From Terriglobia bacterium (GTDB lineage Bacteria > Acidobacteriota > Terriglobia > Versatilivoradales > Versatilivoraceae), in the NCBI GenBank assembly GCA_022452285.1, contig JAKUNG010000002.1:83716-147715 (forward strand): a stretch of DNA of 64,000 nucleotides, given 5' to 3'. A program made the translations under genes and the position numbers. The notes beneath the pieces were generated by a model that searched no databases, was not told where the DNA came from, and saw only the letters and a list, made by a program, of their open reading frames with translations. Shown here one piece after another: positions 4,645 through 54,959 of this stretch (its first letter is position 1; every line of letters begins with the position of its first letter).

Positions 4645-4802
4645 TCTCTGTAATCAGAACTTATAATGCACAGGTGTTCAACTTTAATTCCCTAGTGGTT
4701 GGACATCTTACTAAACCAATAATAGAAAAGTCTGTTGGAATTATTATAGAAAGTTTAACTTTTTTCAATCTTGTCGTTGCATAATCCTTGGAGAACCTCC
4801 CT

Positions 4803-7163
4803 ATGAAAGATGGAATCACAGAAAAACTCCACCCAGCTAACAACCTTACTGATTTTACCGTGACTAATGATGATGTCGATTTCTTTAATCGTCATCTACG
4901 GAATTTTGTTCCGACAGAATCTTTTGACTCTCATGCCCATTTCTATGAAAACTCACATCTAGGAAACACACTTAATGATAATTACCTAAAATATCGTCCA
5001 AATCCAGGCGGATGGGCTGCCTACCAAAAACACCTCAAAATGTTGATGGGTGACCGCGCTCCACAAGGAGGATTGTTTTTTGCAATGCCTCGAAAAGATG
5101 TAAATATGAGGGCAGCTAATGAATTTGTAGCAGAACAAGTGTCACAATCTGACAAACTTAGAGGTTTGTTATTGATTCATCCAAAAGATGACCCAGACCA
5201 TGTTAATCAGCAAATTACTGATCAAGGTTTTGTTGGAATAAAAGTTTACCTAACTTATGCTGATCGTGATGACCCATACAATGCTGAGATTGAAGAATTT
5301 CTACCGGACTGGGCTTGGGAAATTGCTGACAAAAATAGACTAGTAATCATGCTACACATGGTTAAACCCAGAGCAATAGCTGACACCCTTAATCAACAAT
5401 ACATCCGTGAACATTGCCTGCGTTATCCTAATGCAAATCTTATTCTTGCCCACTGTGCTCGGAGCTTTAACTCTGGGCATATCCTCGAAGGACTTGATTC
5501 TCTGCGTGGACTTGAAAATATCTTCTTTGACAACTCAGCCATTTGTGAGCCTCAACCTGTTGAAGAGATTCTTAAAATATTTGGACCATCAAGACTTTTA
5601 TTTGGTACAGATTTTCCCGTTTCTATGCTTCGGGGTCGAGCAGTTAGCACTGCTGATGGATTTCTTTGGCTTGGTCAGGGTAACGTGGACTGGTCAACAG
5701 CAGCTTTTGGAAATAATACCGTGTTAGGACTAGAGAGTCTATTGGCACTTAAACATGGGTGTCAGCGAATGAACCTGATTGACACAGATATTGAACGGAT
5801 TTTTTTTCAAAATGCTTATCAGTTATTTAAAATAGAAGAACAAGAAGTTGGACGTGGCCAAAATCTGTATATTGAAGCAAAGAAAATCATTCCTGGCGGA
5901 ACTCAACTGCTGAGTAAACGACCTGAGTTATGGGCTCCTGATCAGTGGCCTGTGTATTACAAAGAAGCCCGAGGATGCTCAATCATAGATATGGATGGTC
6001 AGCATTATACGGATTTTAGCGTTAATGGAATTGGCTCAACTATGTTGGGGTATGCAGATCCAGATGTAACTGCAGCTGTAATTAGACGAGTCCAACACGG
6101 TTCTATGTGCTCACTCAATGTGCCTGAGGAAATGGAAGTAGCTCGACTTCTTTTACAGTTGCATCCTTGGGCTGATAATGCTCGTTTCACACGGGCTGGA
6201 GGAGAATCATTAACAGTGGCCGTTCGAATTGCACGCGCAGCAACTCAAAGACAAAACGTCGCAATCTGTGGTTACCATGGATGGCATGATTGGTATATTG
6301 CTACAAATATAGGAACAGAACATAATCAAAAACTAAACGAACATCTTTTAAAAGGAATTGACCCAGCTGGGGTACCCTCCAGACTTGGTGGCACCACTTT
6401 CCCTTTTCGCTACGGAGAACTCCAAGAACTAGAACAAATATTTGATTCTGCTCCAGAACCTTTAGCTGCTATTGTTATGGAACCTACTAGAAGCGAAGAT
6501 CCTGCTCCAGACTTTCTTCCATCCATTCGAAAATTGTGCAATGAACATGGTGTTAAGTTAATCTTTGACGAGGTATCTATTGGGTGGAAACTAACAGTAG
6601 GTGGTGCACACCTCAAATATGGAGTTAATCCTGACATAGCTGTATTTGCAAAATCAACGGCTAATGGACACCCTATGGGTGCCATCATAGGAAATGAAGA
6701 AACTATGCAAGCCGCTCAAGAATCTTTCATCTCTAGTTCATTTTGGACTGAAGGAGTAGGTCCCGCTGCTGCAGTTGCTACTATTAAGAAAATGATGCGG
6801 GTTGATGTAGTTGGGCACGTCGATCGCATTGGACAATCAATGAAAGATGTTTGGCTGAAACTAGGTACCCAATATAAACTTCCTCTAACAGTGGATGGAC
6901 ACAATGCATCTTGTGGTTTTTCTCTCAATCATCCAAAAGTTAGGGCCCTGGAAACATTATTTACCGTTAGAATGCTTAAAGCTGGGTTCCTTGCAACCCC
7001 CCACATAACTTTAACTCTTGCTCATGAACCCTACCATGTTGAGGCATATGCTAAAGCAGCAGAGCCTATCTTTTATGAACTAGCTACAGCCATTGAAAAA
7101 GATGACGTCGAATCCCGCATTGGTGGTCCGATAAGACATTCAGGTTTTCAACGACTAACCTAG
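4803..7163 (+). CDS. Amidohydrolase fused to class III (GSA-type) aminotransferase
   Basis: One uninterrupted 786-residue frame encodes two complete enzymes. Residues 1-345 form an amidohydrolase_2-type TIM barrel, with HxH metal ligands H44 and H46 in FDSHAHFYEN, an ILAHCARSF strand and D270 in LLFGTDFPV. Residues about 355-785 form a PLP-dependent class III aminotransferase closest in style to glutamate-1-semialdehyde aminomutase. Evidence is IPGGTQLLSKRPE near the start, GYHGWHDWY, the LIFDEV Asp and Lys617 in FAKSTANGHPMGA as Schiff-base candidate. The start is ATG 4803, with GGAG at 4790-4793; TTG 4788 has no ribosome site. The M81 gene follows after 30 bases, so they form an operon. A plausible job is hydrolysis of a cyclic or amide substrate whose product is transaminated or isomerised by the second domain. 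Substrate unknown. Confidence 0.88.
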   Translation: MKDGITEKLHPANNLTDFTVTNDDVDFFNRHLRNFVPTESFDSHAHFYENSHLGNTLNDNYLKYRPNPGGWAAYQKHLKMLMGDRAPQGGLFFAMPRKDVNMRAANEFVAEQVSQSDKLRGLLLIHPKDDPDHVNQQITDQGFVGIKVYLTYADRDDPYNAEIEEFLPDWAWEIADKNRLVIMLHMVKPRAIADTLNQQYIREHCLRYPNANLILAHCARSFNSGHILEGLDSLRGLENIFFDNSAICEPQPVEEILKIFGPSRLLFGTDFPVSMLRGRAVSTADGFLWLGQGNVDWSTAAFGNNTVLGLESLLALKHGCQRMNLIDTDIERIFFQNAYQLFKIEEQEVGRGQNLYIEAKKIIPGGTQLLSKRPELWAPDQWPVYYKEARGCSIIDMDGQHYTDFSVNGIGSTMLGYADPDVTAAVIRRVQHGSMCSLNVPEEMEVARLLLQLHPWADNARFTRAGGESLTVAVRIARAATQRQNVAICGYHGWHDWYIATNIGTEHNQKLNEHLLKGIDPAGVPSRLGGTTFPFRYGELQELEQIFDSAPEPLAAIVMEPTRSEDPAPDFLPSIRKLCNEHGVKLIFDEVSIGWKLTVGGAHLKYGVNPDIAVFAKSTANGHPMGAIIGNEETMQAAQESFISSSFWTEGVGPAAAVATIKKMMRVDVVGHVDRIGQSMKDVWLKLGTQYKLPLTVDGHNASCGFSLNHPKVRALETLFTVRMLKAGFLATPHITLTLAHEPYHVEAYAKAAEPIFYELATAIEKDDVESRIGGPIRHSGFQRLT

Positions 7164-7193
7164 TTTAGCTTCTAAATCAGAGGAGATATGAGA

Positions 7194-8690
7194 ATGAAAC
7201 GGATTGGGATAGCTGGGTTTCTTCATGAATCCAATAGCTTTTCTCCAATACCCACCCCCTACCAACATTTTAAAGAAACTAGTTATACAACTGGAAAAAG
7301 CCTGTTGGATCGTTGGGAAGGTACCCACCACCAACTCGGTGGATTTTTGGAAGGAGCTAAGCAGTTTGGATTTAAACCTGTGCCTATTTTTGCTACTTAT
7401 GGTATCCCCTCAGCTCCAATGTCAAAGGAATCCTTCGAACAACTATCAAGTGATATGATCGGCTTAATTCAAACGGCCCTTCCCCTAGATGGGTTACTCC
7501 TAGCTTTACATGGTGCCGCAGTATCAGAACCTTTTCCAGATGCAGATGGCGAGCTCTTAGCTCGCATTCGGCGTTTAGTCGGTCCGAGCCTCCCAATTGT
7601 CTCGGTAATTGATCTCCACGCTAATGTCTCTCCTGAAATGATCAATGCAACCCATGCCCTTATTTCGTACCGTTCTAATCCCCATCTAGATCAACGTCAA
7701 TGTGGAATTGAAGGTAGCAGCATAATAATGAGAATTCTTAATCAAGAGATTAGTCCTATTCAAGCTCTTGAATGTCCTCCTTTACTTATAAATATTACAA
7801 AGCAGTACACAAATGAAGCTCCCTCTAAACAACTTTACTCTGACCTTGAAACAGTACTGAATTGGCCAGGGATTTTGTCTGCCAGCACCGCCATGGGTTT
7901 CTATTATTCTGATGTTAAGGATATGGGTGCCTCTTTCTGGGCAATTTCAGATTCTAATCCTTCTCTGGCAAAAAAAGCTGCACAATGGCTAGCTCAAAGA
8001 GCCTGGGACAGACGACAACAATTTCTCGGAGATCTTCCCAATGCTAAACAGGCTGTTCATATGACCCAGTCAAAAATTGATGGCCCCATAGTTCTTATGG
8101 ACGTTGGTGATAATGTAGGAGGGGGTGGCCCAGGTGACTCAACATTTCTTTTGTCTGAAATCGTTTGCCAGAAAACCTCAAATGCATTAGTAGTTCTTTT
8201 TGACCCAGAGGCTGTACTAACTTGCGTAGAAAAGGGTGTTCGCCAGTCCATTGATCTACTGGTTGGTGGAAAAACAGATAACCACCACGGTCAGCCTGTA
8301 AGAATAAAAGGAAAAATACGGTTAATTTCGGACGGAAGATCCTTGGACACCCAACCTAGACATGGCGGTCATGGATTGTTTGATCAGGGTTTAACTGCAG
8401 TAATACAAACCCTTGAAGGACATTTAGTTGTACTAACTACTCTCCGCAGTGCCCCTCGGAGTCTCGAACAGCTTTACGCTTTAGCTATTGTTCCTGAAAA
8501 TATGCACCTCATAGTTGCAAAAGGGGTTGTTGCTCCAAGAGCTGCTTATGAAGCCATTGCTTCTCAAACTATAATCGTAGATACCCCTGGTGCTACAACA
8601 GCTAATCCAGCAAATTTTAAGTTTCAACACTGCCGCCGCTCCCTTTACCCCCTTGTCAAAGACGTAAAATACTCAGCATCGACTTTATAA
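7194..8690 (+). CDS. M81 family metallopeptidase (MlrC/microcystinase C-like)
   Basis: 498 residues with the DUF1485 plus MlrC C-terminal domain order. Marks include the N-terminal GFLHESNSFSP, DLHANVS near residue 140 (metal-binding Asp/His) and DVGDNVGGGGPGDS near 303. The archetype, Sphingomonas MlrC, is a zinc enzyme that opens the linear tetrapeptide product of microcystin. Most homologues act on other small amide-containing substrates that remain unknown. The start is ATG 7194, 8 bases after AGAGGAG (7179-7185); ATG 7188 is too close to that site. It lies 30 bases downstream of the amidohydrolase-aminotransferase fusion and probably shares its transcript. No signal peptide, so cytoplasmic. 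Confidence 0.88.
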   Translation: MKRIGIAGFLHESNSFSPIPTPYQHFKETSYTTGKSLLDRWEGTHHQLGGFLEGAKQFGFKPVPIFATYGIPSAPMSKESFEQLSSDMIGLIQTALPLDGLLLALHGAAVSEPFPDADGELLARIRRLVGPSLPIVSVIDLHANVSPEMINATHALISYRSNPHLDQRQCGIEGSSIIMRILNQEISPIQALECPPLLINITKQYTNEAPSKQLYSDLETVLNWPGILSASTAMGFYYSDVKDMGASFWAISDSNPSLAKKAAQWLAQRAWDRRQQFLGDLPNAKQAVHMTQSKIDGPIVLMDVGDNVGGGGPGDSTFLLSEIVCQKTSNALVVLFDPEAVLTCVEKGVRQSIDLLVGGKTDNHHGQPVRIKGKIRLISDGRSLDTQPRHGGHGLFDQGLTAVIQTLEGHLVVLTTLRSAPRSLEQLYALAIVPENMHLIVAKGVVAPRAAYEAIASQTIIVDTPGATTANPANFKFQHCRRSLYPLVKDVKYSASTL

Positions 8691-8843
8691 ACCAACCCTA
8701 CGCTAATCCATTATCCAAAATTTGCTTGCAGATCTTTAAAACACAGCTGGTTATTCCCCTAAAGACTTCGCTTTATAACTCTAAGCATAAACTCTCAGTA
8801 ACTGCTTGTAAAAATCTGGTAAAAAATATACTGATCATTCCCA

Positions 8844-8874
8844 TTGACATTAACCTAACGTGTTAGGTTATAAT
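8844..8874 (+). promoter_or_regulatory. MerR-type promoter: consensus -35/-10 with 19-bp spacer holding a dyad
   Basis: TTGACA (8844-8849) and TATAAT (8869-8874) are perfect sigma70 hexamers separated by 19 bases instead of 17. The spacer contains TAACCTAAC-GT-GTTAGGTTA (8851-8870), a perfect 9-bp dyad that runs into the -10 box. An over-long spacer filled by a dyad is the hallmark of promoters activated by MerR-family regulators through DNA twisting, though a TetR-type repressor could use the same site. The expected transcription start, about 7 bases after the -10, falls on the ATG at 8881, so the transcript would be leaderless. No MerR gene lies in the window. Confidence 0.6.
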
Positions 8875-8880
8875 AAAAGA

Positions 8881-9078
8881 ATGAAATGTACAATTCACAA
8901 CATTCAACTAATTTGTTACTGTCCGGCTTGTCGTGGTTCTATATCCTCACAACGAAAAACCCGTACATCTCGTGCTAATGGACTTCTAGGAGGCAGACCA
9001 AAAAAAGAAAAGGGGGAGTTAAATTTAAGTAAAACTTGTGAAGAAGCCATCCTAAACAAAATGATAACGGGAAAGTGA
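8881..9078 (+). CDS. 65-aa Cys-rich basic protein, putative zinc-ribbon/AT-hook-like
   Basis: A short gene starting at ATG 8881, directly downstream of an excellent promoter. GTG 8860 would lie within the dyad upstream of the -10 box, so it cannot be the start. The protein begins MKCTIHNIQLICYCPAC, giving a possible metal knuckle from C3, H6, C12, C14 and C17. A basic middle with NGLLGGRPKKEK follows, where the GRP core flanked by lysines resembles an AT-hook. The C-terminal 20 residues may form a helix. A DNA- or RNA-binding role, perhaps metal- or redox-sensing, is inference. The stop codon lies inside an 11-bp hairpin. I do not recognise a named family. Confidence 0.6.
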   Translation: MKCTIHNIQLICYCPACRGSISSQRKTRTSRANGLLGGRPKKEKGELNLSKTCEEAILNKMITGK

Positions 9079-9105
9079 AATAAGAGCGATTAAATCTTAT
9101 TTCAC
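9075..9105. terminator. 11-bp hairpin over the stop codon of the small protein
   Basis: GTGAAATAAGA (9075-9085) pairs perfectly with TCTTATTTCAC (9095-9105) across a 9-base loop. It contains the TGA stop of the 65-aa gene and separates it from the convergent symporter gene. There is no U-run on either strand, so it may act as an mRNA-end stabiliser or a weak bidirectional terminator. Confidence 0.45.
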
Positions 9106-9164
9106 TGGTTCTACGTGGACACATTCCTAATTACAACATAATATTTAGAACAATCAGACTTTTA

Positions 9165-10694
9165 TTAATTTGCAGAATTCCTTGTCCAAACTGTCAAGTC
9201 AGTTAAATCTCGGACAGCTCTTCTCCCCGAGAGGCAACTGATACCTATTCCTAACAAAAATAAAAAACTATTAGCTAAAACAATAATCCAGAACTTGTCT
9301 GGAAGAATATGTGCTATACCTGGGGATATTTGCCTTCCAATTTCACTATCAAAAAATAACCAAAGAAAAACACCTAATACCGTCCATATAGTTGCAATAG
9401 AAGCAGATTTACTATCAACCCTCTTAGTTAAAAATCCTAACAGAAACAGACCTAGTAATCCTCCACTCATAACAGAAATCAAAGTCGCTTGAAGATCTTG
9501 TAACGTTTCGGTTCTTGTAAAGTGAATGACCAGAGCTAATACAATCATGACAACTCCAAAAACTCCCGATATCCACCGTCCAAAGGTTACATAATGTTTT
9601 TCTTTCTTGCTAGGAGCAATCAATCTACGATAAAAATCAGTCGTTACTGCTGATGCTGACGCATTAATACTAGAATCTAGAGTAGACATAGCGGCAGCTA
9701 ATAATCCAGACATAACAAATCCAGCAACACCAGCAGGCACATGACTTAAAATAAAAAATGGATAAACCTGTTCGGGCAACATTGTCTCCAACTCTGGCCT
9801 GGGGGAATGCTTGTAAAGCACATAAAGAGCAGTACCAATAAAGCTGAAGAAAACCCATACCATTACTGTAGTCACAGCACTGAGAACAATACCCTTTTTC
9901 GCCTCTTTAGTTGTCTTTATTGCAGCATATCTTTGAATCGTCATTTGATTTACACACATGTACTGGGTAAAGTGAAACAGGTGCATTAAAACCATAATCC
10001 AAACCGTTTTTTCTGAAAAATTTAGTGCTGTACTTCCGATCGAGAGCTTGCCATCCGCATAGGCCTCTCCAATTATCTGTTCGAAGCCCCCTGGCACCAT
10101 ATTAAAAATAATAGGAAGGCATATTAGTCCCCCCAAAATTAGAGCAAAGCCTTGAATCATGTCGGTCCAAATGACAGCTTCTAACCCTCCAGCAATAGTA
10201 TAAGAAGCAACCAACACCCCAAAAATTACAATAATCCAAGGCAAAGAAAATCCTGTCATTGTCTCAATGGGAAGACAAACAGCATAAAGAATCACTCCGA
10301 GACGAAACATCTGAAACAACACGAAGGCTGCCCCTGCATACAAACGTGCCCAGGCACCAAAACGTTTTTCTAGATATTCATATGCAGATTGAAAATTTCC
10401 TTTTCGAAAAAGGGGCATAAAAAGAAACAGCCCCGGAATAGATGCTAATAAATAAGTAAACAAGGGAGGCACATAACGCCAGTTTTCGGCATAAGTAAAA
10501 CCTGGAGTTGCCAGAAAAGTCATTGAACTCACAATCGTTGCCATCATTGAGAGCCCAACAACCCAACCTGGCATATTTCGACCAGCCAAAAAGTAGGCAT
10601 CTGAAGATTTACTTTTCCTAGCGCAGTACACACCAATACAAACCATTACAACAAGGTTAAGTCCGATTACTATCAGGTCAGCTAATCTCCACAT
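9165..10694 (-). CDS. Sodium:solute symporter (SSS family)
   Basis: 509 residues with about 13 predicted membrane segments. The SSS core features are present: an N-terminal helix followed by SSDAYFLAGRNMPGWVVGLSMMATIVSSMTF split into TM1 and TM2, YTIAGGLEAVIWTD in the middle, and SGLLAAAMSTLDSSINASAS, which supplies the conserved serines near the Na2 site. Family members import sugars, proline, pantothenate, sialic acid and other organic solutes with sodium. ATG 10694 is preceded by AGGGAGAG at good spacing. It is the last gene of the minus-strand set with the Rieske protein and two amidohydrolases, so it may import their substrate, although 147 bases separate it from the Rieske gene. Substrate not predictable. 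Confidence 0.93.
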   Translation of the reverse strand: MWRLADLIVIGLNLVVMVCIGVYCARKSKSSDAYFLAGRNMPGWVVGLSMMATIVSSMTFLATPGFTYAENWRYVPPLFTYLLASIPGLFLFMPLFRKGNFQSAYEYLEKRFGAWARLYAGAAFVLFQMFRLGVILYAVCLPIETMTGFSLPWIIVIFGVLVASYTIAGGLEAVIWTDMIQGFALILGGLICLPIIFNMVPGGFEQIIGEAYADGKLSIGSTALNFSEKTVWIMVLMHLFHFTQYMCVNQMTIQRYAAIKTTKEAKKGIVLSAVTTVMVWVFFSFIGTALYVLYKHSPRPELETMLPEQVYPFFILSHVPAGVAGFVMSGLLAAAMSTLDSSINASASAVTTDFYRRLIAPSKKEKHYVTFGRWISGVFGVVMIVLALVIHFTRTETLQDLQATLISVMSGGLLGLFLLGFLTKRVDSKSASIATIWTVLGVFLWLFFDSEIGRQISPGIAHILPDKFWIIVLANSFLFLLGIGISCLSGRRAVRDLTDLTVWTRNSAN

Positions 10695-10841
10695 GAGAAA
10701 TACTCTCCCTATGCATCACCTATCAATATTTTTAGTTGATTTTAAAAGTCTACTCTAGAAATTATTATCTTGTACTGAGGCTATTAACAAAAATGTCCAC
10801 TAAAACTAGATCCTTATTTATAAAGGGTTATCTTTTCTTTT

Positions 10842-11267
10842 TTAGGGAATCTCAACAAATATATATTGATCATTAATAGTTACAGGATAAGTTTCAGCTT
10901 TGTAAGGCAACTCTACAGAAGAAGAATCTCTGTTTGGACCTTCTACGGTTACTTTGTATGTCCTGACTCGGGTATGATCTGGTTCAATACAGGATTGGCC
11001 ATTTTTAAGATCAAATTCCCAACCATGCCAAGGACATCTAATAATCTCACCCCTTCGCGTAAAGTGATATTCGCCCGGAACATTCGCTTCTACGAATCCA
11101 GAAACCTGTCCTAGGCATAATGGACCGCTTTGATGAGGGCAATGATTCAAAATGGCAAAAAACTCACCCTCCACATTAAAGATTCCAATAGATCTGCCCT
11201 TAATTTGGGCAATCTTTCTTCCTCCACGAGGGATTTCTCCAACAGCAGCCACTGCATGCTTAGCCAT
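10842..11267 (-). CDS. Rieske [2Fe-2S] ferredoxin-like protein
   Basis: 141 residues forming a single Rieske domain. The cluster ligands are C43 and H45 in NHCPH, and C78 and H81 in RCPWHGWEFD. It lacks a signal peptide and a catalytic mononuclear-iron domain, so it would act as a small soluble electron carrier. Usual partners are ring-hydroxylating oxygenases or nitrite-reductase-like enzymes, but none is encoded beside it here. The start is ATG 11267, preceded by GAGAGAGG rather far upstream; the TTG just before it is less likely. The gene sits between the symporter and two amidohydrolases on the same strand. Relatives of those amidohydrolases include decarboxylases in aromatic catabolism, so an aromatic or heterocyclic ring pathway is possible. 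Confidence 0.9.
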   Translation of the reverse strand: MAKHAVAAVGEIPRGGRKIAQIKGRSIGIFNVEGEFFAILNHCPHQSGPLCLGQVSGFVEANVPGEYHFTRRGEIIRCPWHGWEFDLKNGQSCIEPDHTRVRTYKVTVEGPNRDSSSVELPYKAETYPVTINDQYIFVEIP

Positions 11268-11373
11268 CAAATAGTTATAACCTCTCTCAGCTTCCTTTAA
11301 GAATTATTTTTAATAAAAAATTAACAAAACTAATCTTTTTCAGATCTGGAATTCACCTATGGCTACGAAATCT

Positions 11374-12501
11374 TTAATTCAAGTCATATAGAGTTCGAGC
11401 ATTTTCAGACATAATTTTTTTTCTTACCTCATCATCAAGTCCAGCCGGAAGTGCTGCCTCAGGAGAGTCAAAATCCCAGTGTGGGTAATCTGTTGCAAAC
11501 AGTAATCGATCTGAAGCATCCAGATGTTCTAGCAATTGCTTAAAATAGACCGGTTTAGAAGGCTCTTCCATCGGTTGAGTACTCATCCAGATATGTTTAC
11601 GGATATAGGATGAGGGGGTCGATTTAAGTGCAGGCACTTCTTGGGGAAGCTTTTTCCAGCAATTATCTAATCGCCACATTAAGGAAGGCATCCATCCAAA
11701 ACCACCTTCAATTAGAACCACTTTCAGTAAAGGAAACTTTTCAAAGATCCCTTCAAAAACTAAACTGATAACCTGAGATTGAAAGGCTTGGGGCATTCCA
11801 CCATGATCCTCAATATAGTAAGATGGCCACCCTGCTCCTGTTAGGGGTCCTCCGCCTGCTCCGCCAAAATGGATCCCCACCGGCAGATTATGCTTAATCG
11901 CTGCCTCATAAATTCCATGATATTTTCGTCGCCCTAACGGTTCACGGGTTCGAACTAAGAATAAAACTTGAACAAAACCGGGATGACTTCCTACTCTATC
12001 TATTTCTTCAGCTGCCAGTTCTGCATCCTCATAGGGAATTACAAGTGATGCACGAAGTCTCGGTTCAGGATCCAGCCATTCAGCAATCTGCCAGTCATTG
12101 ATCGCTCTGGCTAGGGCTGCCCCATATTCAAGGTTTAACTGTCCACCAACACCAAATAGACAATTAAGAACTCCAAACTCAATATCATACAGATCGAGCA
12201 ACTGATATTTCATAAAGTCTAGATCCGATCCAGCAGGCAGCCCAGAGGGTGGCCAAGAATCATGCCGAGCTGCATTCATTAGGGCTCTGGGGTAAAACGA
12301 GCCTAAATGGCCTCTAAGTCCAAACATTTGGTGATGTTCACGCCATCTTTGGGGAAGATATTTGTAAAGGGTTTCATTTGAAGGAATGAAGTTGTGGATG
12401 TCACAATCAATAATTTTCTGGTTCTGAGTTTTAAGTTTATTCTTATTTTTCTTGAATAAAGTTGACGATTTCATTTTTTGTTTTGATAAGCTTAAGCGCA
12501 A
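11374..12501 (-). CDS. Amidohydrolase_2 family metal-dependent hydrolase/decarboxylase (copy A)
   Basis: About 375 residues of the amidohydrolase_2 family, whose members include ACMSD and 5-carboxyvanillate-type decarboxylases. Seen are the N-terminal metal motif IIDCDIHN, LPVGIHFGGAGGG at a middle strand, VVLIEGGFGWMP, and the C-terminal LLFATDYPHWDFDSP, whose Asp is the usual late metal ligand. The N-terminus is lysine-rich with no obvious signal, so cytoplasmic. The start is uncertain: TTG 12501 gives the longest form, while ATG 12474 (MKSSTLFKKN) is the more standard start; neither has a clear ribosome site. The next gene upstream is a clear paralogue, so this is a tandem duplication. Confidence 0.87.
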   Translation of the reverse strand: MRLSLSKQKMKSSTLFKKNKNKLKTQNQKIIDCDIHNFIPSNETLYKYLPQRWREHHQMFGLRGHLGSFYPRALMNAARHDSWPPSGLPAGSDLDFMKYQLLDLYDIEFGVLNCLFGVGGQLNLEYGAALARAINDWQIAEWLDPEPRLRASLVIPYEDAELAAEEIDRVGSHPGFVQVLFLVRTREPLGRRKYHGIYEAAIKHNLPVGIHFGGAGGGPLTGAGWPSYYIEDHGGMPQAFQSQVISLVFEGIFEKFPLLKVVLIEGGFGWMPSLMWRLDNCWKKLPQEVPALKSTPSSYIRKHIWMSTQPMEEPSKPVYFKQLLEHLDASDRLLFATDYPHWDFDSPEAALPAGLDDEVRKKIMSENARTLYDLN

Positions 12502-12551
12502 AATAATTAAAAATATATCTGCTTTACTCTTACTATCCTAACTCAAAAATC

Positions 12552-13670
12552 TTAGAAACGATAAAATGATTGAGCATTTTTCAATAGTATTTTTGTAGTT
12601 ACTTCCCTAGAAAGACCAAGTGGGAAAGCCTCTTCAATACGATCAAACTGCCAATGTGGATAATCAGTTGAAAACATTAACATTTCTTCAGAATCTAATT
12701 GCCCAATTACTTCCGAAAATTGCTTGATATTTCCAGGCCCGTCAATTGGCTGAAGCGTCAAACGGATGTGCTTACGGATATACTCAGATGGAGGCTTTTT
12801 TACCCAAGGAATATTTCGCCGCAGACCTTTCCATTCTTTATCTAATCTCCACATCAAAGGAGGCATCCAAGTAAAACCACCCTCTATGAGAGAAACTTTT
12901 AGGGTTGGAAATCGATCAAACGCTCCTTCCACAATTAAACTCATTACTTGAGATTGAAACACTTGGGACATGGAAGCAAATTCTTCAGCATAAGTTGAAA
13001 GCCATCCACTTGGCGTTGACGGATGTCCAGGTGAACCACCAAATTGTATGCCCAAAACCAGACCGTGTCTAACTACTGCTTCATAAATAGGATCGTATTT
13101 TCGACTTCCATAGGGAATTAATGAACGAACAGGCATAATTACCTGAACAAATCTAGAATCATGCCCCCACCGATCTATTTCCTTCGCTGCCAATATCGGA
13201 TTTTGACTAGGAATGACAATAGAACCCCTTAAACGGGTATCGCGTGATAACCAGGTATCAACTTGCCACTGATTAACAGCTGAAGAAAGTGTTAAAGCCA
13301 ATTGTTCATCATGGACAGCCTGGACCCTATAAGCGCAGTTTAAAATACCAAACTCTATTTTTAGTTTGTCAAGTAACCCTTCCCTTAACTCCCCTATGTC
13401 AAGATTCCCCTTAACCGAACCAGTCTTCCGGAAACTCAAAGCCACTGAAGTTGGGGCCCCTTCTGGATAATCATCTGAGTCTGGCCCACGGAAAGCTGAT
13501 TCCTCGATATAGGACCGCCAATGATCGGAAAGATATGGTTTTAAAACCTCAATATTTGGGACTTCATTGTGAATATCACAATCAATGACATTTTGATTAA
13601 TCCAAAACAAATCATTTAAGTCATTATCCGATAAGGGTGCCAAGAATATTCCTTTCTTCTGACCTTTCAT
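12552..13670 (-). CDS. Amidohydrolase_2 family metal-dependent hydrolase/decarboxylase (copy B)
   Basis: 372 residues, aligned along its whole length with the neighbouring amidohydrolase. Shared blocks include VIDCDIHN, QVFQSQVMSLI, EGGFTWMPPLMWRLD, SEYIRKHI and FSTDYPHWQFD. Substitutions around the active site (for example LGIQFGGSPG where copy A has VGIHFGGAGG, changing a His to Gln) suggest the two copies have different substrates or form a hetero-oligomer. It starts at ATG 13670 without a convincing ribosome site and is the first gene of the minus-strand group. The 210-base gap to the divergent Tat DHDPS-family gene should hold both promoters. Reaction not determinable. Confidence 0.87.
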   Translation of the reverse strand: MKGQKKGIFLAPLSDNDLNDLFWINQNVIDCDIHNEVPNIEVLKPYLSDHWRSYIEESAFRGPDSDDYPEGAPTSVALSFRKTGSVKGNLDIGELREGLLDKLKIEFGILNCAYRVQAVHDEQLALTLSSAVNQWQVDTWLSRDTRLRGSIVIPSQNPILAAKEIDRWGHDSRFVQVIMPVRSLIPYGSRKYDPIYEAVVRHGLVLGIQFGGSPGHPSTPSGWLSTYAEEFASMSQVFQSQVMSLIVEGAFDRFPTLKVSLIEGGFTWMPPLMWRLDKEWKGLRRNIPWVKKPPSEYIRKHIRLTLQPIDGPGNIKQFSEVIGQLDSEEMLMFSTDYPHWQFDRIEEAFPLGLSREVTTKILLKNAQSFYRF

Positions 13671-13883
13671 TATGTGGTTGAAGAGTTGTCATAATTATCA
13701 AGTTAATTTGTAAATAGAATACCGCAGAACCCTACAACTTCTCAATTCTAGTATATAAATAATCCTAAAAAGAAGTCAGTTACAACTTAATTATGATATA
13801 ACAAGAAATTATACAAAAATTAGATTCTGTTTATTCCTTGAATTTTTCATAGTTACACCAGTTTGGTGCCCGGAGAGCCACAA

Positions 13884-14915
13884 ATGAAAAAACAACATAG
13901 AAGGCTATTCATGAAAAATCTTACCCTCGCTACCGGCACTTTAATGTCGACTTCTTTTGGCTGCATTAAAACTACTCATAGTAAAGGATCAATGCAAAAT
14001 CGCAGGGACCTAATCCACGCACTTGAGGGAGTCCATAATTTTATGGTAACTATTTTTCACCCAGATTTTGAACTAGATTCCGAAGGACTCCGACAGAATA
14101 TATCTGACCACGCTCAAGGCTTTCACAAAAAGATGTCAATTGTCGTTGCAGGTGGCTTGGGTGAACTATACAGCCTTGATATTGAAGAGCATCGTTCTCT
14201 TGTAACAGCTGCAGTAGCCGGAGCTGATGGTAAAATGCCTGTAATAGCAGGTATTGGTGGTGGCTATCGTAATGCTATGCGAATGGCTAAAAATGCTGAA
14301 CGTGCAGGTGCTGATGCTGTTTTACTCTTTCCTCCTGGTTCTCGTTGGGGTCAAAGGGACGGAACATACCGTTGCTGTCTAGACGTGGCTAAATCTGTGG
14401 ATATCGGTGTTCTAATTTATCCTCGCTCCGAAGATTATTGGCCTGAACTTTTAAAACAGTTAGCTAGAATTGAAAATATAATTGGTTTTAAAGATCCTAG
14501 TGGAGATACCAAAGTAGGTTTAAGCTTAGGAAGTATCATTCCTGAAAATTTCCTTTGGATTGCAGAAGGAGAAAACCACGCTGTTAAATCTCTTCCTGTT
14601 GGAGGTAGAGCCTATACAACGGCTGTAGCGACCTTTGCCCCAAAAGCTAGCTATGATTTTTGGTCAGCTGGCATAGCAGGTAATAACAAAAAGATGACTC
14701 AAGTTTTAACTGATAAAATTGAGCCTATTGTCAAACTTCGTGGAGTCAAATCTGGTTATGGCATCAGTGGAATTAAAGTAGGCCTCAAATCGTTAGGCAG
14801 AGCTGGTGGCCCTGTACGTCCTCCAGGAACTCAAGTAGATCCCAAAGACCGAGCTGCTATTGCCAAGATTGCACATTTGCATTCCGAGGTGCGAGGAGAT
14901 TCTTCTAGCGATTGA
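13884..14915 (+). CDS. Tat-exported DHDPS/NAL-family lyase, putative lipoprotein
   Basis: 343 residues of the dihydrodipicolinate synthase/N-acetylneuraminate lyase superfamily, class I aldolases that act through a lysine Schiff base. Lys203 in IIGFKDPSGD is the Schiff-base lysine and Tyr179 in LIYPR matches the catalytic tyrosine. The N-terminus HRRLFMKN...TSFGC is a twin-arginine lipoprotein signal with Cys27 as lipidation site, so this aldolase would act in the periplasm. The start is ATG 13884 with GGAG 8 bases upstream. It heads a plus-strand group with an exported amidohydrolase and an exported creatininase-family protein. Cleavage or synthesis of a 2-oxo acid is expected; the actual substrate is unknown. 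Confidence 0.87.
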   Translation: MKKQHRRLFMKNLTLATGTLMSTSFGCIKTTHSKGSMQNRRDLIHALEGVHNFMVTIFHPDFELDSEGLRQNISDHAQGFHKKMSIVVAGGLGELYSLDIEEHRSLVTAAVAGADGKMPVIAGIGGGYRNAMRMAKNAERAGADAVLLFPPGSRWGQRDGTYRCCLDVAKSVDIGVLIYPRSEDYWPELLKQLARIENIIGFKDPSGDTKVGLSLGSIIPENFLWIAEGENHAVKSLPVGGRAYTTAVATFAPKASYDFWSAGIAGNNKKMTQVLTDKIEPIVKLRGVKSGYGISGIKVGLKSLGRAGGPVRPPGTQVDPKDRAAIAKIAHLHSEVRGDSSSD

Positions 14916-14982
14916 TTAATTAATAATTTGATTTTAGACAAAATAATTTAAAAACAAATTATCCACACCAAGGGAGGTGCTT

Positions 14983-15963
14983 GTGAAAGACCTAAACCGT
15001 CGAGAATGGATTATCTCAGCTAGTGCAATGGGATTATTCGGCGCATGCAATTCACCCAAAGAAGACAAACCTTTGGTTGAACCTACTATCGTTGATGCCC
15101 ATGTACATGTATGGAGTTCTGATTTTAGACGTTATCCTCTAGCCCCAGGATTCGAACCTACAGATCTTTGGATTCCTAGTTATTCAGTCGAACGACTAAT
15201 TAGAGAGGGCAAACCCGCTGGTATCGGCAAAACTAATTTGATTCAAATGACATGGTACGGTTTGGATCACTCATATATTTTGGACATTATTGCTAAAGAC
15301 CCTAAACATTTCGTAGGTACAGGGATTGTTCCTGCAGTTACCGATGTTTCTCTTCCAAGTCCTGATAAAACGATGATCGCTCTATCTAAAAAAGGAATAT
15401 ATGCCTTCAGGGTTCGTGGTGGAACGACTCGTCCTCCACTCGGTGGGGGACCCCAATGGATGGACCATCCTGGATTTGACATGATGTTTAAGGCAGCTGC
15501 TGAACACAACCTGGCACTGAGTTTTTTGATGAGTATCAATGACTTACCTGAACTTGCCCGAATGTGTGAGCACTTTCCTGACAGTCCTGTGATTATTGAT
15601 CATCTTGCTGGCACCCATGAAGCCTCGACTGAAGAAGAAATCCAGTTGCTTTTAAAAATGGCACAACATAAGAAAGTTATGATTAAGGTAGGAGCTTTTT
15701 ATGGAAGAGGCAGGACACCTCCATACTTAAGTTTGTTGCCCTTAATAAAACGAATAGTCGATGCATTTGGCCCAGAGAGATGCATGTGGGAAAGTGATGC
15801 TCCCTTTCCTCCAGACAGGCCATCTCGACACCCATTACCTGAGGTGCCTCACGGCATTGAACCTGCTGTCGCACTTATCCGTGACCATGCCGACTTTCTG
15901 AGCCAATCAGACAAGCACCAGATTTTAACTAAGACAGCGGAAGATTTTTTCTTTAACCGATAA
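14983..15963 (+). CDS. Tat-exported amidohydrolase_2 lipoprotein (copy 1)
   Basis: 326 residues. The Tat signal NRREWIISASAMGLFGAC has lipobox Cys22. The barrel shows the HxH motif IVDAHVHVW, the block LIQMTWYGLDHSYILD, VIIDHLAG, and a final CMWESDAPFP with the late metal-ligand Asp. This arrangement resembles lactonase-like members of the family (PDC/LigI-type and fuconolactonase-type). GTG 14983 is the start, placed 5 bases after AGGGAGG (14971-14977). A close paralogue lies at 53921-54892, with identical stretches such as DVSLPSPDKTMIALS. It sits 67 bases after the DHDPS-family gene and 70 before the creatininase gene, each with its own ribosome site, consistent with one transcript. Confidence 0.87.
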   Translation: MKDLNRREWIISASAMGLFGACNSPKEDKPLVEPTIVDAHVHVWSSDFRRYPLAPGFEPTDLWIPSYSVERLIREGKPAGIGKTNLIQMTWYGLDHSYILDIIAKDPKHFVGTGIVPAVTDVSLPSPDKTMIALSKKGIYAFRVRGGTTRPPLGGGPQWMDHPGFDMMFKAAAEHNLALSFLMSINDLPELARMCEHFPDSPVIIDHLAGTHEASTEEEIQLLLKMAQHKKVMIKVGAFYGRGRTPPYLSLLPLIKRIVDAFGPERCMWESDAPFPPDRPSRHPLPEVPHGIEPAVALIRDHADFLSQSDKHQILTKTAEDFFFNR

Positions 15964-16033
15964 AATAAATCAATGGATATAATTTGATTTTTTATTAAGC
16001 ATATGTGTCCTATAACAATCAGGGAGTCATAAA

Positions 16034-17089
16034 ATGAAAACCAAACTATCTCGGAGAAATTTTATTCAGACGTTGACAGCAATAGGTTCTGCTGGTGCTG
16101 CATTAGCAAGCTCATCTTGTCAGGAGTCTTCAAAGCCCGTTTCTACGGCCCAGGTTGCATCGATAAATACTGCAGGTTTGGCTTCCTCTCCTCTTCCCTA
16201 CTCAACGATGTCAAGTAATTCTATTGATCCTCGAAAAGTTCTCCTCTGGGAACAAACACGTAAGGAAGTTCGCGAAGCCTTACAGCGAGGAGACATTAAA
16301 GCTGCAATAGTTCCCACAGGATCTACCGAACAACACAATGAACACTTAGTTCTAGGAACCGATGTTGCTAGTGCAACTCTTTTGTCAGAACAAACAGCAC
16401 TGCGACTCTATCCCCAAGTCATCGTATCCACACCTTGCCCTGTAGGCTGGGCTCCTTATCATATGGCACGAAAAGGGACACTCACCCTGAGCAAGGAAAC
16501 TTTTCGGGCCTTTGTTTTTGAGGTAATTGAAAGTCTTATTGCACATGGAATCAAAACTATTTTAGTCTGTAATGGACATGGTGGAAATCATCATATTCTC
16601 AAACAAGCCCTTCCTGAATGGCGGAAAAAACTAGGAATTACTCTGGACGCTATTTCCTACTCAGAAGCCTATAAAGATGAGGAACTAGCAACGTTTTTAA
16701 CATCTTACAAACTACGTCTAGAGGGTAAATACGACAACATTGCAGAACAAACCGCAGATAGTCACGCATCAGAACACGAAACTTCAATCGCTTTGGCAGC
16801 CTACCCAGAGAGGGTTCGCTCTGTTAGCATGAAAGATTATGATGATGCAAAGCTAAATTATGAATCTGGAATGACACCTAAGGTTTGGGAATACATGAAA
16901 CCCTTTGACTCTCAGAGAACAACTAACCCAGAAAATGCCAGGGATAGAGCCCGTCAACACCAAGCTTTACTCGGTACAGCAGAAAAGGGTAAAAAGTTAA
17001 TAGAAATTTCTGCAACATATCTCTCTAAGAAATTGCAGAAAATGATTCATGCAACCGAGAAAGGGCTTACCTGGCCTACGAAGACTTAA
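16034..17089 (+). CDS. Tat-exported creatininase-family amidohydrolase, putative lipoprotein
   Basis: 351 residues. The Tat signal LSRRNFIQTLTAIGSAGAAL is followed by Cys29 as likely lipidation site and a low-complexity linker to about residue 60. The creatininase fold shows the metal-site motifs TGSTEQHNEHLVLGTD (E99, H101/H104, D110), CNGHGGN and HASEHETS. Known members open cyclic amides (creatininase) or act on formamides in pterin and flavin metabolism. Most are cytoplasmic, so export is unusual. ATG 16034 follows AGGGAG at good spacing. It is the last gene of the exported three-enzyme group, and a hydrolytic lactam/amide step fits the neighbours. Confidence 0.87.
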   Translation: MKTKLSRRNFIQTLTAIGSAGAALASSSCQESSKPVSTAQVASINTAGLASSPLPYSTMSSNSIDPRKVLLWEQTRKEVREALQRGDIKAAIVPTGSTEQHNEHLVLGTDVASATLLSEQTALRLYPQVIVSTPCPVGWAPYHMARKGTLTLSKETFRAFVFEVIESLIAHGIKTILVCNGHGGNHHILKQALPEWRKKLGITLDAISYSEAYKDEELATFLTSYKLRLEGKYDNIAEQTADSHASEHETSIALAAYPERVRSVSMKDYDDAKLNYESGMTPKVWEYMKPFDSQRTTNPENARDRARQHQALLGTAEKGKKLIEISATYLSKKLQKMIHATEKGLTWPTKT

Positions 17090-18172: not shown

Positions 18173-19177
18173 TTATAAAATTCCCTGCTTTATCAAGAAT
18201 TCTCTCAACTGTTTTTTTTCTGCAGTACCATGTGAACCTGTTGGAGGTCTCCACAAGTTAGTTTTAAATAGACCAGTTAATTCTAAAATGGTTTTGATCG
18301 TCTGACCCCACCCCAAAGTTCTTGCAATATTCATTAGGGGATCCTCGTACTGATACATAACCTTGCGAGCCTCGTCCAGATCATTTTCCTTCAAAGCTCT
18401 ATAAAACTTTAATGCTATGGATGGAGCGAAGGGAGCATAGGGGCACAAATAACCATGAGATCCTATCAGAAATCCAAAAAGGAAATTACGCATTTGACCA
18501 CCACCAATAACTACAAATTTTTTATCTCTTACCACCCGAATAAAATCATGATAACGATACAACGCATCATGACTCTTTAACCCACAAACCCGAGGTATAG
18601 TTGATAAACGGGCAACCAAATCCGGAGAATAATTTTCATCTAAGGCAAGAAGGGGCAATTTTGTTTGGTTAGAGACCTCCGAAAATGTCTCGAATACTTC
18701 TTCAGCTTTATTAGTATTGAGATGAAGGTTAATCCCATCAACGCCCGAATCATTTAATCGATTAATAAAATCAATACTTTTGTTAGTCCACCATTTCCCG
18801 GTACCACCAATCACCAGAGAACGTCCCCTAGACTGGTCTGCAGCTGTACGACAGAGTTTTTCAATTTCCCATTCACTCATGTTTTTAAACTCACTACTTC
18901 CATGAGTAAAGAAAATTACAGGTACTTTTTGTTCGCAAAGAAAATCCACATAAGACCTTAGATTTCCGTAATCAACAGAATAGTCTTTAGCAAGAGGAAT
19001 GTTAATAGGAACAACTGGGCCTCGGAGCCGCTGATAAACTTGGTCCACAGTCTTCTCATATTTTGGGGTTAAGGTAGAAGCTCTCACTCGGTGATTCAGT
19101 GCCAAAATACTAGCAGCTGATGATGTTAAAAACTGTCTCCGACTAAACCAACTGTATGATTGTCGAAATCCTTTCAT
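18173..19177 (-). CDS. Tat-exported DHDPS-family protein
   Basis: 334 residues with a classical twin-arginine signal, FSRRQFLTSSAASILAL, and no lipobox Cys, so a soluble periplasmic protein. The body is a DHDPS/NAL-type TIM barrel with Lys201 in RVCGLKSHDAL as Schiff-base lysine. The usual Tyr region after the sixth strand reads LLALDENY rather than a typical YNVP, so the chemistry may be altered. The gene starts at ATG 19177; its ribosome site AAAGGAG lies in the last codons of the cupin gene, giving a 4-base gap and tight coupling. It is the third gene of an operon with an unknown 161-aa protein and a cupin. Convergent with the orphan gene at 17.3-18.0 kb. Confidence 0.85.
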   Translation of the reverse strand: MKGFRQSYSWFSRRQFLTSSAASILALNHRVRASTLTPKYEKTVDQVYQRLRGPVVPINIPLAKDYSVDYGNLRSYVDFLCEQKVPVIFFTHGSSEFKNMSEWEIEKLCRTAADQSRGRSLVIGGTGKWWTNKSIDFINRLNDSGVDGINLHLNTNKAEEVFETFSEVSNQTKLPLLALDENYSPDLVARLSTIPRVCGLKSHDALYRYHDFIRVVRDKKFVVIGGGQMRNFLFGFLIGSHGYLCPYAPFAPSIALKFYRALKENDLDEARKVMYQYEDPLMNIARTLGWGQTIKTILELTGLFKTNLWRPPTGSHGTAEKKQLREFLIKQGIL

Positions 19178-20132: not shown

Positions 20133-22370
20133 TTATTTTGTATACTTGAAATAATGTACTACTTTTAAACTTCGGGGAGAGACCTCAACCTCAAAAGCAC
20201 CGTCTCTAATAATTAGTTCCTTTCCATCAAATAAATCTTTAGCCCGATGGATTTCCTCTTGTGGCTGGAGCTGAACTTTTGCTCGAGAACTTTTTAGGTT
20301 TAATACGAACAAAAGATTACCAGTTTTAAAAGATCCTCTTTCAAGAACAACAACTTTATCTCCCTTTACTAAGACTGGCTGAGAAACACCTGCCATTTCC
20401 ATGAATGACACGAGTAGTTTCTTTGCAGCCACACCGTCAAATGCATGTCCATACGGCAAGTCTTTAAGTATTGGCTTAGGAAGCCCACCCAAGGAGGACC
20501 CAATGGGGATTGCTAAATAGGTAAAGCGTCGGTCATGAGTCTGTACACCCACCACTTCTTTACCAAAATGAGCAATAGCACGGGTCATATTCCTAGGTGA
20601 AAGGCTGGCATAATTACACCCTTTTTCAATTTTATAATCACCGTAAATGGTTTGAATTATATTTCGACCTTCATGCAAATCCAGAGTGTCAATACGAGAA
20701 TAATCTAACACTTCCACCCCTAGTAATTGAGTCAACCCTTCTGGGGGATTGTAACTAAACCGTCCCGTTGGAGCATTTGTTCCCAGAATTCCATCAGCAA
20801 CAAGATACGTCTCTGGTTGCTCTCGAATTACTCGATGAATTTTATTAATTGTCGACTTAGTCATCAACATCAAATTTGGAAGAAAAATTAATTTGTAACC
20901 TGACCAATCCATCTTTGGAGTCACCAAGTCAACTGGAACATTACTTTCCCAAAACCCGCGGTAGATTCCTTTTACAAAACGCCATTGCTGTTCTTTTTCG
21001 TTTTCCATTTCTATCAAGATGTCATTGTCACTATCGTGAACAATAGCAACTTCTGCCTGTGAAATTTTTAATGGCAAATGAGCTGAAACTTCTAGACTTT
21101 TAATAGAACTTATCGCCTGTTCAATAGCTTTTAGTTGTGGAAGAGGCTTTCCATTTGGACTAACCAAATTTAGACCAGGGGCCTCATGAGTACCATACTC
21201 TTGACGGTATTGCCAAAAAATAGCCCCTTCAGCCCCATATATCAAACCCATCCATAAACACATTGCTAAATCCTCAGGGAGAGTTTGCTTACGATACTGC
21301 ATGCCACCGTGATAAAAACCTGAATAAATTTCTGTATACCACCAACGGTTATCTTTTCCAACGGCCCGTGACCACTGGCTTGCATATGCAATATTGCTAT
21401 ACAGATATGGATCTTCACTATTAAAAAGATTTGTGCTGTGAGATGCAAAACCCCAGCTATCAGACTCCTGACTAGCTCCTTCGTCGAGAGCTTGTGGATA
21501 ACGAAAACCATGGCTATGAAGCTCGTGTTTCTTGTCTATACTTCGAACAATCTCGACTTGCCATTTAAGAGTTTTTGCTACATTTTCATAAAGAAATTGC
21601 CTGAATAACAGACCTGCCATAACTAAGTTTTTTGACTGCGGAGCCTCAACATCTTTCCAAGTTCTATAACGTCTTCCTAATCTTTCACTTAGACTATCTA
21701 ATGTGAATCTTTCCTTTAACCACTTCTTGTACTTCGAAACAGTGTGAGGACAAAAACAGCTAAATCCGGGGCTAACGTCATTACCAGCTCCAGGAATTCC
21801 TGGTCCATCCCATACGACCCACATTCCCATAGCTGGATGATCCTTATATCTATTCACTACGGTTCGGAGCACTTCTTCCGAATATGTTTTCCACATTGGA
21901 TGATCATAGCAATGCCTATTCCCCCCTTGAACACCTGCTGAATTTGCAAATGGCTGAGCAATCTCGCCAGTGCTATAAACAACCCTCATATCAGGATGTT
22001 TTCTTAGCATCCAGTCAGGACACGCCATGTGAGTAGACAAAGTAAAATCAAAGATCACCTTTAAACCATGCTTGGCAGCCAACTCGAACATCCGATCAAA
22101 ATCATCTAATTCAATTTTTCCTTCTTCTGGATTTAACCAATTCCAAGAACTAAATGTCCTAACTGATTCCAATCCTGCACGACGAATAGTAGCAAAGTCC
22201 TCGTCCCACATCGACATCGGAGGAAAAGGAGCTCGGTAATATTCAACGCCTACCTTGTAGCGCCACGGGTCGCTCTTGTACTTTGGAATGTGCGTATTTG
22301 TTCCCTCTAATTCCAAGGTGCCAGCTGCTGCCATCGCAGTAGATAGAGACAAGAATTCTCTTCGGTCCAT
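20133..22370 (-). CDS. GH42-like (beta-galactosidase family) protein with altered acid/base site
   Basis: 745 residues with a Tat-like N-terminus MDRREFLSLSTAMAAAG. The layout is that of glycoside hydrolase family 42: catalytic barrel about 35-420, a trimerisation-type flavodoxin-like domain about 430-660, and a C-terminal beta domain. Typical barrel blocks are FDRMFELAAKHGLKVIFD and a putative nucleophile Glu347 in WWYTEIYSG. In the usual W-Q-x-D-N-E-x-G motif this protein reads WVVWDGPG (184-191), so the acid/base Glu is replaced by Gly189. The activity may therefore be lost, or changed as in beta-galactosidase-like proteins using a different acid. ATG 22370 follows CAGGAG. Divergent from the DUF1080 gene. 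Confidence 0.85.
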   Translation of the reverse strand: MDRREFLSLSTAMAAAGTLELEGTNTHIPKYKSDPWRYKVGVEYYRAPFPPMSMWDEDFATIRRAGLESVRTFSSWNWLNPEEGKIELDDFDRMFELAAKHGLKVIFDFTLSTHMACPDWMLRKHPDMRVVYSTGEIAQPFANSAGVQGGNRHCYDHPMWKTYSEEVLRTVVNRYKDHPAMGMWVVWDGPGIPGAGNDVSPGFSCFCPHTVSKYKKWLKERFTLDSLSERLGRRYRTWKDVEAPQSKNLVMAGLLFRQFLYENVAKTLKWQVEIVRSIDKKHELHSHGFRYPQALDEGASQESDSWGFASHSTNLFNSEDPYLYSNIAYASQWSRAVGKDNRWWYTEIYSGFYHGGMQYRKQTLPEDLAMCLWMGLIYGAEGAIFWQYRQEYGTHEAPGLNLVSPNGKPLPQLKAIEQAISSIKSLEVSAHLPLKISQAEVAIVHDSDNDILIEMENEKEQQWRFVKGIYRGFWESNVPVDLVTPKMDWSGYKLIFLPNLMLMTKSTINKIHRVIREQPETYLVADGILGTNAPTGRFSYNPPEGLTQLLGVEVLDYSRIDTLDLHEGRNIIQTIYGDYKIEKGCNYASLSPRNMTRAIAHFGKEVVGVQTHDRRFTYLAIPIGSSLGGLPKPILKDLPYGHAFDGVAAKKLLVSFMEMAGVSQPVLVKGDKVVVLERGSFKTGNLLFVLNLKSSRAKVQLQPQEEIHRAKDLFDGKELIIRDGAFEVEVSPRSLKVVHYFKYTK

Positions 22371-22449
22371 AAGATGCTCCTGACTGTTGTATTTCTTTTA
22401 CTTGATATAGTAATCTAGAAGTTAATAAGGTATTGGTTCTTGCCGCTTA

Positions 22450-22464
22450 TTGTCAACTATACAA
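22450..22464. promoter_or_regulatory. Operator-like element, near-copy of the one at 4630
   Basis: TTGTCAACTATACAA differs by one base from the element at 4630-4644. It lies in the 229-base divergent region between the GH42-like and DUF1080 genes. Two near-identical 15-mers, both in divergent promoter regions of catabolic genes, could be sites for one GntR-like regulator; chance cannot be excluded. Confidence 0.3.
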
Positions 22465-22599
22465 CACTAATGAAGTTACGATTATACTGATCTAAAGGTT
22501 AATCTGCATTGATTTATATTTGATGGTAGCCGGACAACCAGATTTCATTGTAAAATTACCTCATCTCAGAATAGACTCTCATCACGTCAAGGAGCCTTT

Positions 22600-23367: not shown

Positions 23368-23391
23368 AAACTAATTATAAAGAAGATACCC

Positions 23392-54892: not shown

Positions 54893-54959
54893 GACAATCC
54901 TCCTCAATCATTTAAAAAGGCTTCAATCTACCATTTACTTCCTAATAACAGGAACCACA

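Follow-up and report, generated by a model that had tools for sequence, protein, structure and literature searches.

We found that three adjacent genes in a 64,000-nucleotide stretch of a Terriglobia bacterium genome (contig JAKUNG010000002.1, positions 83,716 to 147,715; the window) encode enzymes with predicted signals for export by twin-arginine translocation (Tat). They face a divergent operon for a sodium symporter, a small Rieske protein and a pair of proteins that looks like an amidohydrolase-related dinuclear oxygenase. The three enzymes (the trio) are a DHDPS-family lyase (P0001), an Amidohydro_2 hydrolase (P0002) and a creatininase-family hydrolase (P0003). The DHDPS, amidohydrolase and creatininase families usually work inside the cell. 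We favor the interpretation, to which we give a probability of about 0.45, that this is a catabolic locus split between periplasm and cytoplasm: an exported trio, import by the symporter, and hydroxylation by the oxygenase.

The three enzymes carry predicted Tat signals

An earlier sequence-only reading of the window had placed these families at 13884-17089, each with a twin-arginine motif and a lipobox-like Cys near residues 22-29, and our Pfam searches gave PF00701, PF04909 and PF02633 matches there (Table 1). In each N-terminus a twin-arginine (RR) motif precedes a hydrophobic stretch and a Cys, which is residue 27 in P0001, 24 in P0002 and 29 in P0003. The first GTG of P0002 lies within the ribosome-binding sequence in part, so that translation more likely starts at the GTG at 14983; the Cys would then be residue 22. 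TatC is encoded in the genome that carries the window (the host genome; 1.2e-68).

We scored signals with a rule that combines an RR motif with an uncharged hydrophobic stretch (Tat-like) and, for the lipobox, a PROSITE-like pattern. This rule cannot replace SignalP, and it overlooks some Cys-bearing signals (those with Pro at -4). Eight of the 42 window open reading frames (ORFs) of at least 150 amino acids were Tat-like. Four of the 42 had both Tat signal and lipobox: the trio, and an ORF at 53921-54907 that encodes a second PF04909 protein of this kind, with 64% identity to P0002 over the aligned part. As background we sampled 20 stretches (400 kb of the 3.24 Mb host genome, whose assembly has a listed contamination of 7%). 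Among the 275 ORFs sampled, 14 were Tat-like and none had a lipobox as well; for 6340 shuffled N-termini the corresponding numbers were 49 and 0. Because the combination was found in 0/275 sampled ORFs and 0/6340 shuffles, an adjacent run of three such proteins is not due to chance.

The hydrolases also retain candidate catalytic residues. H42, H44, H209 and D274 of P0002 (alignment of 5 sequences) and E99, H101, D110, H182 and E247 of P0003 (alignment of 4 sequences) were invariant. Fold prediction gave a mean predicted local distance difference test score (pLDDT) of 46.6 for P0002 and 54.3 for P0003, both too poor to be used alone. All 26 Foldseek matches (E<=0.001) to the low-pLDDT P0003 model were creatininase-family chains, which agrees with Pfam and adds little.

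The Tat signal is conserved in all three enzymes and the signal Cys in two

We compared the trio with homologs in the host's order, which comprises 12 genomes, all from one family. Close orthologs were located in genus g4, and the counts below rest on those with a readable N-terminus. The Tat signal was kept in 6/6 lyases (G005 to G010; that of G005 was read at a contig end), 6/6 amidohydrolases and 7/7 creatininases. The RR motif and the hydrophobic stretch were constant in these orthologs, and other signal positions varied. In a check set beforehand, we found no readable copy without a signal among close orthologs in homologous operons, as expected if the three enzymes are co-exported. Unsignalled paralogs, such as L006, are located elsewhere.

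The signal Cys behaved differently. It was present in 6/6 lyases and 6/6 amidohydrolases, so that P0001 and P0002 have a conserved Cys after the hydrophobic stretch, as bacterial lipoproteins do. The lyase orthologs have Pro at -4, which falls outside the lipobox pattern of the rule, yet the Cys is there. In contrast, 0/7 creatininase orthologs had a Cys in the signal region; Cys29 of P0003, which is preceded by SSS, was found in the host genome only. G003 belongs to a different genus; there, the top homolog of every trio member had a Tat motif and no signal Cys. The best lyase homolog of G003 lies on a different contig from the other two, and a second one of equal identity (G003:C201, L049) had no Tat signal. 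Based on these counts and on G003, Tat export appears to be the constant feature of close orthologs, and the lipid anchor seems to come and go. The earlier observation is thus partly confirmed: its Tat part stands, and the proposal that all three are lipoproteins holds for P0001 and P0002 and not for P0003.

The same succession of RR motif and lipobox Cys found in P0001, P0002 and their orthologs is known from Tat lipoproteins (Tat substrates of signal peptidase II, Tat/SPII), here on DHDPS and PF04909 enzymes. Few examples have been collected: the SignalP 6.0 data set is described as holding only 36 Tat/SPII sequences (PMC9287161), and none of the Pseudomonas aeruginosa Tat substrates is reported to be a lipoprotein (PMC6085387).

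A divergent operon encodes a putative dinuclear oxygenase

An operon at 9165-13670, transcribed away from the trio, encodes AH2b, AH2a, a small Rieske protein and a sodium symporter. The best structure match of AH2a was a chain of 6m1w (6.4e-95), reported as AibH1H2 (PMC7782822), and AH2b matched a solved amidohydrolase-related oxygenase chain at 1.6e-73. The metal ligands of AibH2 are given as D25, H27, H211, E265, D337 and H340, and D342A is reported to lower its activity (PMC7782822, PMC10401708). AH2a is a PF04909 protein with all six ligands, and D342 as well, in 5/5 genomes. AH2b has Gln at the H211 position and Gln or His at the D342 position in 5/5 genomes. According to a published search rule, a small Rieske gene beside PF04909 genes marks such oxygenases (PMC10811679); a small Rieske gene was next to AH2a in 6/6 genomes with enough contig. 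Among 555 AibH2-like proteins, co-occurrence is given as 90% for Rieske proteins and 40% for permeases (PMC10401708). Neither AH2a nor AH2b had an N-terminal signal in the window genome. As judged from ligands and neighbors, the pair looks like an amidohydrolase-related dinuclear oxygenase.

The closest known system is the 2-aminoisobutyrate monooxygenase AibH1H2-AibG-AibF of Rhodococcus wratislaviensis (PMC7782822, PMC10401708). As described there, it too pairs a PF04909 subunit that has the full dinuclear ligand set with a degenerate one, and has a small Rieske protein and a permease in its cluster. The permease is an amino acid permease, whereas here it belongs to the sodium:solute symporter family (SSF). 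AibH1, like AH2b, is described as having no D342 counterpart; unlike AH2b, it retains the metal-binding His. The predicted Tat-exported trio is a further difference from the Aib system. SfbO and other amidohydrolase-related dinuclear oxygenases are likewise PF04909 proteins with a neighboring small Rieske protein (PMC10811679), and AH2a and AH2b matched the 8sm6-8sm9 chains of this group at 1e-57 or better. The excerpted text of that report contains no mention of neighborhoods with exported enzymes.

The gene order is conserved in relatives

We found the order symporter-Rieske-AH2a-AH2b, followed by the divergent lyase, in 6/6 genomes with enough contig: the host's own, G005, G006, G007, G009 and G010. 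Protein identity across this block was 59-81%. In G008, AH2b and the start of AH2a are followed by the contig end. The symporter linkage that the sequence-only reading had offered as a check was therefore borne out. That reading proposed that the trio opens a lactam or lactone, cleaves it and passes the product to a transporter. The symporter link supports this in part. The locus exceeds such a scheme, because the symporter belongs to a four-gene operon with the Rieske protein and the oxygenase pair, which the scheme left out. With the oxygenase operon taken in, the pathway idea becomes both stronger and different.

The 213 bases between the divergent runs are likely to hold both promoters, and the two operons may share regulation. 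In a homolog scan of contigs, 7 loci were returned, of which 3 had 71-73% identity and 4 had 28-30%; L068, L069 and L070 were not counted as additional genomes. Past the symporter, two further genes belong to the block in some genomes (Table 1). In G005, the 1.86 kb past the symporter had no match to either gene, and the G009 contig stops at that point.

Table 1. Features of the locus and its surroundings in the window
Feature	Position	Strand	Evidence and remarks
PF04909 domain fused to class-III aminotransferase	4788..7163	+	In block in own genome, G006 (partial), G007, G010
M81/MlrC-family protein	7188..8690	+	In block in own genome, G006, G007, G010
Sodium:solute symporter (SSF)	9165..10694	-	PF00474 1.8e-46; best solved structure 5nv9, 2.3e-68
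Small Rieske ferredoxin-like protein, putative AibG-like role	10842..11270	-	PF00355 3e-14; CxH...Cx2H in 5/5 genomes
AH2a, AibH2-like, putative dinuclear oxygenase subunit	11374..12501	-	Six AibH2 ligands and D342, 5/5 genomes
AH2b, PF04909, putative AibH1-like accessory subunit	12552..13670	-	No H211 or D342 equivalents, 5/5 genomes
Intergenic region, likely both promoters	13671..13883	.	213 bases
P0001, DHDPS-family (KdgD-like) lyase	13884..14915	+	PF00701 1.3e-36; Tat signal, signal Cys27
P0002, Amidohydro_2 hydrolase	14977..15963	+	PF04909 1.5e-24; Tat signal, lipobox Cys24
P0003, creatininase-family hydrolase	16034..17089	+	PF02633 9.3e-47; Tat signal, Cys29 (host genome only)
P0004, second Tat-tagged DHDPS-family protein	18173-19177		No lipobox

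A proposed pathway in two compartments

In the pathway that we propose, all three enzymes of the trio would fold in the cytoplasm and leave through Tat. The lyase and the amidohydrolase would be lipid-anchored; in most relatives the creatininase would probably be soluble after cleavage. The periplasmic trio would trim a compound encountered outside the cell, and the sodium symporter would take up the resulting small molecule. In the cytoplasm the AibH1H2-type dinuclear oxygenase, with the small Rieske protein feeding it, would hydroxylate this molecule. A plausible reason for the use of Tat is that the hydrolases are loaded with metal before export and that the lyase family folds as oligomers. 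More tentatively, the Tat-exported, partly anchored trio might release the native substrate of the amidohydrolase-related (perhaps Mn/Fe) oxygenase, with the two steps in two compartments.

None of the enzymes reaches the cut-off of an equivalog model from which a substrate could be named. The best relatives of P0001 were PRK03620 (1e-61), KdgD (5-dehydro-4-deoxyglucarate dehydratase; 1.1e-53) and 4ur7 (8.8e-30). The Lys of GFKD and the Tyr align with KdgD; the KdgD equivalog score was 182.3 of the 373.95 bits of the cut-off, and P0001 is predicted to be exported, unlike KdgD. P0003 is near IolN (3-dehydro-scyllo-inosose hydrolase; 9e-22; 77.5 of 245 bits), carries a Tat signal, and is near creatininase (EC 3.5.2.10; 6.3e-17; 62.1 of 235 bits), with Pfam PF02633 reached. 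The substrate class is likely, if on weak ground, a sugar-acid or cyclic amide derivative, because these are the nearest families; none of their cut-offs was passed. The order of opening and cleavage in the earlier scheme is likewise an inference, because no such cut-off was passed.

Several observations weigh against the split pathway. G011 has the creatininase (65%) on a contig that starts inside the amidohydrolase gene, and we found no close AH2a or lyase ortholog in that genome. The amidohydrolase and creatininase genes are 70 bases apart in the host, whereas in relatives the spacing varies between ~80 bases and 1.4 kb, so that tight spacing is not a general feature; L068 and L070 have extra ORFs inside this gap. 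In G003, Tat-tagged amidohydrolase and creatininase homologs stand side by side, the 9 kb before the pair contain neither a symporter nor the oxygenase genes, and the best AH2a match in that genome was 43%. The trio and the oxygenase are therefore separable. A promoter scan of the intergenic region was at background level. By Pfam, none of the nine genes at 4788-17089 encodes an AibF-like reductase, in contrast to the complete AibH1H2GF set. Of the trio only P0003 passes the cut-off of the NCBIfam Tat model TIGR01409; P0001 and P0002 are unlisted at E<=0.01. This model seems insensitive here, because it found only 7 places in the whole host genome at that threshold, and we rejected it as a genome-wide Tat counter.

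Tat signals on these families recur in the lineage

An alternative is that Tat is a habit of this Acidobacteriota family, worn by many hydrolases and lyases, and that the trio shares a locus without a common pathway, either among its members or with the oxygenase. Tat-like signals were found on 5/15 DHDPS proteins, 2/4 creatininases and 3/17 Amidohydro_2 proteins of the host genome. One of the Amidohydro_2 signals, that of L023, was called by eye and not by the pattern. Paralogs with an RR motif by eye and no Tat signal by script (L046, L057, L059-L061, L066, L067) were left out of the ortholog counts given above, which cover close orthologs only. Because such signals recur, Tat on these families is, from the sequences at hand, a lineage trait rather than a peculiarity of this operon. 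We built a tree from 13 DHDPS proteins (the 15 less two short matches). The four copies with Tat signal and Cys grouped in a single clade (support 0.80) whose sister was an unsignalled copy (1.0), which points to an inherited signal type in P0001. Only two of the three genes are together in G003, which also favors this alternative. The conserved order and the identity of the block from symporter to lyase in 6/6 genomes argue against it, and we consider it somewhat unlikely.

P0004 falls outside the Tat + Cys clade (support 0.73), and this different position suggests that its Tat signal was gained separately. A cupin gene lies upstream of P0004 on the same strand, and a 71% relative of P0004 is on the trio-bearing G006 contig.

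The earlier scheme itself, with three anchored lipoproteins and a chain that opens and cleaves a lactam or lactone for the symporter, we regard as improbable. It fits the Cys after the hydrophobic stretch of all three host proteins and the symporter conserved nearby; against it stand the absence of the Cys from the creatininase orthologs, the omission of the oxygenase pair, and the unreached substrate-naming cut-offs. Least probable is that the enzymes remain mostly in the cytoplasm, with N-terminal signals that are weak or vestigial: the TIGR01409 result and the hydrophobic stretch of P0001 (1.06, the lowest score among the eight Tat-like proteins of the window) speak for this, whereas the RR motif and hydrophobic stretch persist in all readable close orthologs despite variation elsewhere in the signal.

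Two specific pathways were set aside. Creatinine catabolism, which has been reported for sponge archaea (PMC7848895), was dropped because the creatininase score of P0003 falls far short of the cut-off. Breakdown of 3-keto-sugars was suggested by a DUF1080 gene at 22600, and the relatives' stretches had no DUF1080 match.

Other proteins with Tat-like signals were seen near related genes. Beyond the block, window positions 20133-26424 encode a GH42-type protein that is Tat-like, as well as a DUF1080 (3-keto-disaccharide hydrolase) protein and a PSCyt1/DUF1549/DUF1553 protein. At L162:3716-11089, genes for a BNR-repeat protein (Tat-like and with a signal Cys), a sulfatase, and adjacent unsignalled and Tat-plus-Cys DHDPS proteins are followed by an RraA-like gene. 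At L165:6700-8859, a gene for a Tat-like molybdopterin oxidoreductase precedes a creatininase paralog with a Tat motif.

Distribution and significance

We searched 396 Acidobacteriota genomes, drawn evenly and including the host, and scored at most 5 candidates per genome. P0001 had no match at 1e-45 in the 395 other genomes, and P0003 had none at 1e-50 in this search. At 1e-20, P0003 had two matches (L176, L177); the signal of L177 seems to be Sec-type. In the literature we found twin-arginine and creatininase joined only through a mention in a reference list, and no paper that joins AibH2 or a dinuclear oxygenase with Tat. The arrangement is new and its parts are known, and in these searches it was found only in one Acidobacteriota family. 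Going by bin names, its members might be sponge dwellers.

Tat lipoproteins are poorly sampled, and a clade of putative Tat-lipoprotein DHDPS proteins would be a good test set. If the proposed pathway is correct, the trio would be a key to the natural substrate of one group of orphan oxygenases. The 555 AibH2-like proteins are described as uncharacterized, with neighborhoods that gave few substrate clues (PMC10401708). A conserved, predicted exported trio beside an AibH2-like oxygenase would be such a clue, and one that can be tested protein by protein.

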